Source: Pseudocolwellia sp. AS88 (GTDB taxonomy: Bacteria; Pseudomonadota; Gammaproteobacteria; Enterobacterales; Alteromonadaceae). Taken from it: 64,000 nucleotides of DNA. Below are positions 9,063 to 11,546 of this stretch, piece by piece. Location: contig NZ_JAUPEC010000022.1 in NCBI RefSeq assembly GCF_030551755.1, forward strand, positions 1 through 64,000, in the 5' to 3' direction. The translations under genes were made by a program, and so were the position numbers. Position 1 is the first letter of the stretch, and each line of letters opens with the position of its first letter. The notes under the pieces are model-generated. The model worked only from the letters and a program-made list of their open reading frames with translations. It was not told the DNA's origin and did no database searches.

Positions 9063-9569
9063 TCAGTTACGGCGTTTACGACGCTCTGATCGATATGAGG
9101 GCATAGCTGGTAACAAAAACTCTTTCATTACTTTTCGATAAACCTCACGCTTAAATGAAACAACTTGCCTTACTGGATAAAAGTAGCTTACCCATCTCCA
9201 ATCATCAAATTCAGGATGCTCTGAATTTAGTAAATCTACAGATGATTCTTTAGACGTTAGCTTAAGTAAAAACCATTTCTGTTTTTGCCCAATACATAAC
9301 GGTTTGCTGTCGTGTCTTATTAAACGCTTCGGTAGTTTGTATCTAAGCCAGTGTTTGGTCGAAGCAACAACTTTTACATGTTCAGGTTTTAAACCAACTT
9401 CTTCCTGAAGTTCCCTGTACATTGCTTGTTCTGCTGATTCACCCTTGTCTATACCACCTTGTGGATATTGCCAAGAATGTTGTCCAAAACGCCTTGCCCA
9501 AAATACCTGTCCCCTATCATTGATTATTACTATGCCGACATTGGCTCGATAGCCATCAGCATCTATCAA
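9063..9569 (-). CDS. rppH: RNA pyrophosphohydrolase RppH (Nudix), TTG start
   Basis: Removes pyrophosphate from the 5' end of transcripts, which opens them to RNase E decay. The Nudix box [23 protein letters not shown]-like segment fits GX5EX7REUXEEXGU, and [30 protein letters not shown] and [11 protein letters not shown] match E. coli RppH closely. I place the start at a TTG (9569): it aligns with the family N-terminus (IDADGYR) and has GGGAG just upstream. The frame is open to an ATG at 9692, but those extra 41 residues have no counterpart in the family. The resulting 168 residues compare with 176 in E. coli. It diverges from mutH. Confidence 0.94.
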
Positions 9570-9704
9570 AGGAGCTCCCGACAAATTTTCAATAGTTAAC
9601 TGATTCTTCCACACAATAGGCTTTGGAGCAAATAAAAATTCACTTGATACCAGACATTTAGGGCAATAATAATCGCTAACAGGTGCATTCATTTATTCAA
9701 TTAG

Positions 9705-9710
9705 TATAAT
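9705..9710 (+). promoter_or_regulatory. Possible -10 element for mutH
   Basis: A perfect TATAAT lies 29 bp before the proposed mutH start codon; the matching -35 region (near 9682, ggtgca) is poor. If used, transcription would begin near 9717 and the leader would be only about 20 bases, which limits where translation can start. Confidence 0.35.
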
Positions 9711-9738
9711 AGACAAAACAACTTAACGACCGACTATT

Positions 9739-10413
9739 ATCAAAATAAATATCCCACAAGACGAAACAACGCTATTAACACGAGCAAATGCATTATCTGG
9801 ACTAACGTTAGGCGAAGTTGCGGGTAATGAAGGCATAGTTGTTCCACAAGATTTAAAGAAAGAAAAAGGTTGGGTAGGATTACTACTTGAAAAAGTCCTT
9901 GGCGCAAGCGCCGGTTCAAAGCCAGAGCCAGACTTCCCTCATTTAGGTATAGAATTAAAAACCCTTCCCATCACACGTGAAGGTAAACCGTTAGAAACCA
10001 CGTTTGTGTGTGTAACACCATTAAAAGATTTAGTGGGAGCTACATGGCAAAACAGTCACATTAAAAACAAACTTGCGCGTGTATTATGGGTTCCTATTAT
10101 TGCTGAGCGTTCAATAGCGATACCGGATCGCATAATTGGCACACCTTTTATCTGGTCACCTTCGCCTGAAGAAGAGCATTTAATGGCGATGGACTGGCAA
10201 GAACTAACAGACATGATTGTTTTAGGTGAAGTAGAAAACATTACAGGTAAACACGGACAAGTGCTTCAAATAAGACCTAAAGCCGCCAATAGCCAAGCAA
10301 AAACTCAAGCGGTAAATAAAAATGGGCAACCGTTTATGACGCTACCCAGAGGATTTTATTTAAAAACTACTTTTACTCATCATTTGTTAAAAAAACATTT
10401 GAGGATTAATTAA
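9739..10413 (+). CDS. mutH: DNA mismatch repair endonuclease MutH, non-canonical start
   Basis: Nicks the unmethylated strand at hemimethylated GATC sites when activated by MutS-MutL. The frame encodes a complete 224-residue Mut[25 protein letters not shown], then D65, E72 and K74 (the catalytic D-E-K set; D70, E77, K79 in E. coli), [24 protein letters not shown] and [12 protein letters not shown]. No ATG, GTG or TTG exists in frame between the upstream stop (9724-9726) and 10006, and a start at 10006 would lose all catalytic residues. Translation probably begins at ATC 9739 or ATT 9736, giving an (M)KINIP-like N-terminus. No clear ribosome-binding site is visible, so reduced expression or a decayed start is possible. 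Confidence 0.8.
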
Positions 10414-10580
10414 TCTGAGCCCCGAACACCAGAATATAAAAGCATCAGAATAAAGATTGGAAACCGGGTATTCACTAAAAGAAGCTTGGTATAAAGATGC
10501 GTAACAAATAAATAACCAATGACTTCTTTTACATACTAAAAAGGATTATCAATATTTAATTACCGATTAATAATCCCCTC

Positions 10581-11546
10581 TTACCCATGCTCTTTAATGC
10601 AAATGCTTTGTGCAAAACTTACTGTTGAATGAGCTGGAATTATTACAGGTGAAGTATTTGCTGCTTCTAAACAAACATATTCATTTTCACCTTGCGAGTG
10701 AATATCATCCATACTATCAGCGGTTTCTTTCCCTGGATTCCATAAAACCCATTGATGACAATCAGAAGAAGTCACTTCTAGAGTACGCTGCCAAGCATTA
10801 TCTACAATATTCATCACATTATTTGATTGATAAACACGATCAATAGGACCTTTACAGTTTTCTAATGTGCTGAAGTTATCAAAAGTGTTTGATAGTTTAT
10901 CGAAGTAATTTACCTGAGATAATTCATTAACGTGAGTTTTTTGAGGATCACCAACGGCAAAATAACTGTGTAAAGCGCCTGTGTATTCAACATCTTTAGC
11001 TGATTTGTTTTCTATAAATAGCTTCTGTGAAAATGATTCACCAAACACTATTTCTTGTTTTAATTGATAGGCGATATCCCAAGCTGGCGTTCTATTTTCA
11101 CCTTGTTGGCTTAGAACAACCTTAACTGTATTTTCAGTTATTTCGATATCTTCTACTTGCCATAATGATGTTCTCGCAAAGCCATGATTCGCTAATAACG
11201 CTTTATCAACATGAGTAAAATCAAGGTTTTTGTTGTGTTGAAATAAATCAGCTTCAAAACCACCAAACCAAGGTAAACAAATAGGTATTCCGCCTCTTAT
11301 GCCCTTATTATTACCAAACAAAGAGTCTTTACTCATCCAAAATACAGGCTGTTGTCCTTTAGGTTGCCAAGAAACAACATGTCCGCCATACAAACTGATA
11401 GATGCGCTGAAAAGTTTGTGCTCTATTTGCAAGCCATCAGTGGTTGTTAATATATTTTTATCTGAGAAGCGGGTTTGTTCTACAGCACCAAATTCATTAT
11501 GTTGATTTATGATTTGTGCTGCTTTTTCAATACTATCTGATGACAT
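10581..11546 (-). CDS. yeaD: D-hexose-6-phosphate mutarotase (YeaD-like aldose 1-epimerase)
   Basis: A 321-residue galactose-mutarotase-fold protein that interconverts the anomers of glucose-6-phosphate-type sugars. Visible family features are SLYGGHVVSWQPKGQQPVFWMS, the IRGGIPICLPWFG phosphate-sugar segment, NHGFARTSLW with the conserved histidine and arginine, LHSYFAVGD, and the terminal CLEAAN with the catalytic glutamate. Length is slightly above E. coli YeaD (294) because of an N-terminal extension. AGGATCCTC precedes the ATG. It stands alone between mutH (convergent) and the pnt operon. Confidence 0.9.
   Translation of the reverse strand: MSSDSIEKAAQIINQHNEFGAVEQTRFSDKNILTTTDGLQIEHKLFSASISLYGGHVVSWQPKGQQPVFWMSKDSLFGNNKGIRGGIPICLPWFGGFEADLFQHNKNLDFTHVDKALLANHGFARTSLWQVEDIEITENTVKVVLSQQGENRTPAWDIAYQLKQEIVFGESFSQKLFIENKSAKDVEYTGALHSYFAVGDPQKTHVNELSQVNYFDKLSNTFDNFSTLENCKGPIDRVYQSNNVMNIVDNAWQRTLEVTSSDCHQWVLWNPGKETADSMDDIHSQGENEYVCLEAANTSPVIIPAHSTVSFAQSICIKEHG

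Follow-up and report, generated by a model that had tools for sequence, protein, structure and literature searches.

The mutH gene of Pseudocolwellia sp. AS88 very probably initiates at an AUU codon at position 9736 or, less likely, at the adjacent AUC (9739), on a message from a promoter that would include the TATAAT at 9705, with a low level of MutH as the predicted outcome. The gene lies on the forward strand of the 64,000-nucleotide stretch of DNA that was analysed, hereafter called the window. In itself mutH is an ordinary gene; its start is real and rare. Judging from the sequences of relatives, mutH appears to have lost its standard start repeatedly in this group of marine bacteria, with reading now presumably from AUU, AUC or AUA. 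The features on which the argument turns are the following (positions -9 and -8 are counted from a conserved Glu codon).

9063..9569, minus strand: rppH, divergent neighbour; probable start TTG 9567-9569, with GGGAG at 9575-9579
9705..9710, plus strand: TATAAT, probable -10 element of the mutH promoter, so regarded from the recurrence of [GT]ATAAT upstream of mutH
9724..9726, plus strand: TAA, upstream in-frame stop of the mutH frame
9736..9738, plus strand: ATT, most likely start codon, position -9
9739..9741, plus strand: ATC, alternative start codon, position -8
9736..10413, plus strand: proposed mutH gene, 225 codons beginning with ATT 9736 and then the stop at 10411-10413
10006..10008, plus strand: GTG, earliest in-frame standard start, within the conserved core and past the catalytic residues

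The frame at 9727-10413 is that of a complete MutH. The protein scores 339.4 bits against NCBIfam model NF003458 (cut-off 243), covering model positions 4-221 of 223, and 311.5 bits against TIGR02248 (cut-off 229.9); it also matches the Pfam MutH family and the MutH of PDB entry 2azo (E 2e-83). The original prediction had described the frame as complete and as containing the catalytic D, E and K, and the alignment to 2azo agrees, placing these residues at 9931, 9952 and 9958, all before GTG 10006. We take the catalytic residues of the E. coli enzyme to be, in numbering and in role, Asp70, Glu77 and Lys79. A single mutH match was found in the genome of strain AS88, which also carries Dam (TIGR00571, 308.2 bits; cut-off 114.85). 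This genome is close to that of Pseudocolwellia agarivorans, whose strain QM50 has a MutH 91% identical to that of the window.

Upstream, the mutH frame is bounded by the TAA at 9724-9726. The codons that follow read CGA CCG ACT ATT(9736) ATC(9739) AAA ATA AAT ATC CCA, and the frame ends with the stop at 10411-10413. The near-cognate codons around the expected N-terminus of the protein are ATT 9736, ATC 9739, ATA 9745 and ATC 9751. The claim that no ATG, GTG or TTG occurs in the frame before about codon 90 held: the first is GTG 10006, which is codon 94 after the stop and codon 91 from the ATT. The mutH codons ahead of this GTG are, by comparison with P. agarivorans, under purifying selection; in the 81 codons starting at the conserved Glu, the two genes show 39 synonymous codon changes and 9 that are nonsynonymous. 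The same kind of comparison was applied to the immediate surroundings of the start in other relatives (L, G and g numbers denote loci, genomes and genera). Among four Thalassomonas-type rows (g14), codons -8 to +8 gave synonymous/nonsynonymous counts of 4/1, 5/2, 6/1, 3/1 and 4/0, and in the g14 pairs that include L059 the stretch of ten codons ahead of the start gave 5 nonsynonymous changes versus 0 or 1 synonymous. For the eight codons after the start, the corresponding counts were 1/4 (L040-L046), 1/3 (L005-L046), 3/2 (L005-L040), 1/2 (L017-L019) and 4/3 (window-L002); in these rows, which are not of the Thalassomonas type, the eight codons are not clearly constrained and the test is weak.

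Homologues of mutH were found in 144 of 147 relatives and, within the family, in 393 of 395 genomes, two sets that overlap. The upstream sequence was read at 136 mutH loci, made up of the best matches plus 20 outgroups and thus not a random sample, and at 21 of these no ATG, GTG or TTG was present from the upstream stop to the conserved Glu. Removal of seven duplicates or near-copies (L031-L037) left 129 different mutH rows, 18 of which lack a standard start in this interval. In 12 of the 18, referred to below as strict, the next standard start lies 25 to 81 codons further in; these rows (L001, L002, L003, L005, L013, L017, L019, L040, L041, L046, L068 and L084) belong to five genera (g1, g26, g9, g41 and g39). 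In the six weaker rows (L008, L014, L056, L059, L061 and L095), translation could begin at an ATG or TTG located 4-13 codons past the Glu and yield a shortened MutH; in L095 this codon is an ATG at a distance of 4 codons. Loci L006 and L038 were left uncounted; each has a lone TTG, 17 or 14 codons ahead of the Glu, together with an AUH codon (AUU, AUC or AUA) at the usual place. Among 20 further genomes, representing other genera within the family, 16 had ATG, four had GTG or TTG only and none was without a standard start. A minimum of nine changes on the MutH tree accounts for the 18 rows, and at least six of these are forced by the starred branches. The 12 strict rows need six changes (at least four forced), or five if the six weaker rows are left uncounted.

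The start codons of relatives bear directly on the proposal that MutH starts at ATT or ATC, and they were in line with it: several relatives share ATT, ATC or ATA at or beside the same place. Many others have ATG, GTG or TTG there, which supports the position of the start. ATG occupies -9 in L012, L016, L020, L024, L053 and L063, and TTG does so in most g8 rows; L009 has GTG at -9 where its sisters L008, L056 and L059 have ATT in the same column. Even between close relatives the start codon can differ (ATT/GTG in g14, TTG/ATC in g8). Among the 18 rows without a standard start, seven have ATT at -9 and 15 have AUH at -8. In eight rows (L002, L005, L013, L014, L040, L041, L046 and L061), AUH is found at -8 but is missing from -9, so ATC 9739 is also a possible start. 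In three species of g39 (L068, L084 and L095), the codons ATT, ATC and ATC, respectively, are found at -12; downstream of it, L084 and L095 read TTT CCA ACT/ACG CAG/CAA, and the differences are synonymous. By elimination and by homology, AUU 9736 (or AUC 9739) is most likely where MutH of the window starts; we are unsure which codon, ATT at -9 or AUH at -8, is the exact one.

The perfect TATAAT described upstream of the gene is present on the forward strand. Its distance needed correction: it occupies 9705-9710 and lies 25 bases, not 29, before ATT 9736. The motif [GT]ATAAT was found upstream of mutH in 65 of 107 loci, versus 20.4 expected from shuffles, and in combination with a -35 element in 42 of the 107, versus 0.7 expected; the window matches the -10 only. 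In a consensus promoter scan of positions 9500-10700, the TATAAT at 9705 was absent from the output, and neither promoter-like matches (3 versus 4.3) nor terminator-like matches (0 versus 1.1) were in excess over shuffles. From the position of the -10 motif, the mutH leader would be expected to measure about 18-20 nt. The start region of the window gave a folding energy of 0.0 kcal/mol (no predicted structure) and a Shine-Dalgarno (SD) energy of 0.4, and so has nothing like the strong SD found before the AUU of infC. Twenty AUH rows had no SD below -3.1, their median being -1.95 versus -2.0 for random sites. An SD that compensates for the AUH starts was considered and rejected, none having been found in these rows; hence the weak start seen here is not compensated by an SD. 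Most of the ATG rows are likewise without SD (median -1.25, none below -4.2). Of 31 TTG/GTG mutH rows among loci L001-L136, 8 reached a duplex energy of -4.6 or lower.

The divergent neighbour, rppH, served as a control for the reading of starts. Position 1 of the RppH model NF001934 corresponds to residue 42 of the longer rppH frame, that is, to TTG 9567-9569. Initiation at ATG 9692 was rejected as a chance extension; the extra frame is not common to relatives and the model begins at the TTG. The real start of rppH is thus probably TTG 9567-9569, not ATG 9692, and with this start the region between rppH and mutH spans 9570-9735 (166 bp). Found at 120 of the 136 loci, rppH has GTG or TTG at its start in 119 of the 120 as printed; at the remaining locus (L050), the codon shown is shifted by one base relative to a GTG.

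The genome of strain AS88 was also scanned for coding signal ahead of the first standard start in frames of at least 100 codons. The scan covered 664,000 bases (the window and 30 further stretches of 20 kb each, 15% of the genome). Among 517 coding frames, mutH gave the sole strong signal, 83 codons and 31.4 bits; the next frame had 11 codons and 7.3 bits. General laxity of start choice in this genome was rejected on this ground, with one strong case of 517. In a separate observation on contig C4 of the same genome, a putative lipoprotein gene (L181:8142-9521) was seen to have no ATG, GTG or TTG before its signal peptide and to read GTT ATT where P. agarivorans reads GTG ATT. It may represent a second, recent near-cognate start. 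In a comparison of 36 genome triplets, 1 of 61,358 AUG starts and 1 of 5,080 GUG starts had switched to AUU, according to the figures drawn here from PMC5622118.

The start of infC, the gene for initiation factor IF3, was also read in a sample of genomes. In 27 of them, representing ten genera (g1, g4, g8, g9, g14, g26, g35, g39, g40 and g41), infC reads GGAGGAAC ATG GCT ATT. An extra in-frame ATG is thus found six bases ahead of the AUU start (GGAGGAACATGGCTATTAAAGG) and only 3 nt past the SD core. The loci with this ATG are L137 (from strain AS88 itself), L161, L164, L168-L170, L175, L176, L208, L210-L214, L216, L218, L219, L221-L226, L228-L230 and L263. Within the 27, two g39 genomes have ATC, and one g9 genome has ATA, in place of the infC ATT. 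Ten genomes from eight genera (g2, g13, g22, g28, g31, g33, g42 and g52) have ATT or ATC and lack the extra ATG; infC had no readable start in G058 and no match in G049. Three g3 genomes (L151, L259 and L262) have a separate in-frame ATG, ATG CAA ATT (GGAGGAAATGCAAATTAAAGG), which is missing from G054 (L258), a g3 sister.

All 18 genomes whose mutH has no standard start carry the extra infC ATG. Counted by genus, mutH is without a standard start in 18 of 73 rows where the sampled infC has the extra ATG and in 0 of 33 rows where it shows just AUU or AUC; the standard mutH start is kept in the other 55 of the 73. This distribution could be read as a rewiring of mismatch repair to IF3 in one clade of Colwelliaceae-type genera. 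In such a case, infC would have gained an AUG before its ancestral AUU, loosening its autoregulation, mutH of the same clade would have turned repeatedly to AUU, AUC or AUA, and MutH dose and mutation rate would follow IF3 activity (growth state or cold). We regard this as improbable. The infC change may be a single event, the 55 rows of that clade retain standard mutH starts, and in G004, the only g3 genome with both genes read, infC has ATG CAA ATT and yet mutH starts with an ordinary ATG. An altered IF3 protein as the cause of lax start choice was rejected: when 20 proteins from the infC-ATG set were compared with six from the AUU/AUC-only set, with eight outgroups, no gap-free column separated the two sets.

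Under the reading that we prefer, transcription from a promoter containing the TATAAT at 9705 would give a short, unstructured leader without an SD. The ribosome and initiator Met-tRNA would start MutH at AUU 9736 or, less likely, at the adjacent AUC 9739. The AUU would be read far less often than an AUG and would be held down by IF3, as the examples of infC, pcnB and others suggest. The resulting level of MutH would be low and possibly IF3-dependent, and presumably enough for a catalytic strand-nicking enzyme. Control of the mutH start by IF3 is proposed by analogy only. The simplest reading, we infer, is a low set-point for MutH, and the weak start may plausibly reduce mismatch repair. Speaking against initiation at AUU 9736 is the expectation that, without an SD, this codon should be very inefficient.

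If the start is real, it could still be devoid of regulatory meaning. Little translation of mutH may be needed and its start codon may simply wander among TTG, GTG and AUH, an account of what the start means, rather than of where it lies, to which we give a little less than an even chance. Selection for a low MutH level fits the data no better: SDs are missing from the AUH rows and from most ATG rows alike, and the codon changes among close relatives, as described above for g14 and g8. Drift does not readily explain, however, why the change recurs in one gene when rppH and the sampled part of the genome keep standard starts, nor does it sit easily with the extreme rarity of switches to AUU otherwise (PMC5622118).

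The other rivals concern the place of the start. Initiation at an internal codon, giving a MutH shortened at its N-terminus, finds some support in the ATG or TTG located 4-13 codons past the Glu in 6 of the 18 rows; in the window, however, the first such codon is GTG 10006, past the catalytic residues, and the codons ahead of it are under purifying selection, which makes an internal start highly unlikely. We attach even less credit to a programmed frameshift from an upstream start in another frame, which the original prediction had named as an alternative. Overlapping upstream starts in another frame do occur in 11 of 21 rows tested (L003, L005, L006, L008, L009, L017, L019, L038, L046, L056 and L095), and L008, L056 and L009 have one such frame in common; none was found within 150 nt upstream in the window or in L002, L013, L014, L040, L041, L059, L061, L068 and L084. 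In the window, the 30 nt preceding the mutH start contain no start codon in any frame. Finally, ATT is one base away from ATG, and the sequence could be in error or the gene dead. The chance of this seems close to negligible: P. agarivorans QM50 (L031), a genome in a single contig (L041 from G187) and further species and assemblies show the same state, and the frame is complete and under purifying selection.

AUU, AUC and AUA starts are known in very few bacterial genes, and genome comparisons almost never show a switch to AUU (PMC5622118). A search of the literature by titles and abstract openings returned nothing recognisable on a non-standard mutH start or on Colwellia infC starts. A core DNA-repair gene that apparently switched several times within one family would provide a natural experiment on near-cognate starts, and the mutH case would connect the fidelity of translation initiation with the control of mutation. 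The survey also suggests that gene finders restricted to ATG, GTG and TTG would truncate or miss MutH in these genomes; a mutH missed in this manner might then be taken to mean that mismatch repair has been lost.

Among known systems, the closest is infC itself. Its AUU start is conserved and is replaced by AUC in Streptomyces and by AUA in S. aureus, as quoted from PMC5472188 and PMC13009471. Like mutH here, the autoregulated infC of E. coli has AUU instead of AUG; it differs in that infC regulates itself and has a strong SD (GGAGG in genomes of this family), whereas mutH has neither an SD nor a known tie to IF3. Expression of E. coli pcnB is limited by an AUU start (Binns and Masters 2002, as cited in PMC1780047 and PMC9410913). 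It is kept low by this codon, as we propose for mutH, but is not a repair gene. We know of no family-wide recurrence of the pcnB AUU. In S. aureus, near-cognate starts are described for cvfC1 (AUU), ccpN (AUA) and citZ (AUA), and the reporter values given are about 10% of AUG in poor medium and, for ccpN, up to 30% in rich medium (PMC13009471). The S. aureus infC, cvfC1 and ccpN starts have predicted extended SD motifs and the support of ribosome profiling, whereas the mutH start has no such motif and is proposed from sequence comparison. In Streptomyces, the GTC start of sigR is repressed by IF3, according to the account in PMC5472188. The sigR gene is thus held down through a non-standard start in the way proposed for mutH, with another codon and in another organism; control by IF3 was demonstrated there and is extended to mutH by analogy. 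Read from AUU or AUC, mutH joins the few genes known to use near-cognate starts, and among them it is unusually recurrent.
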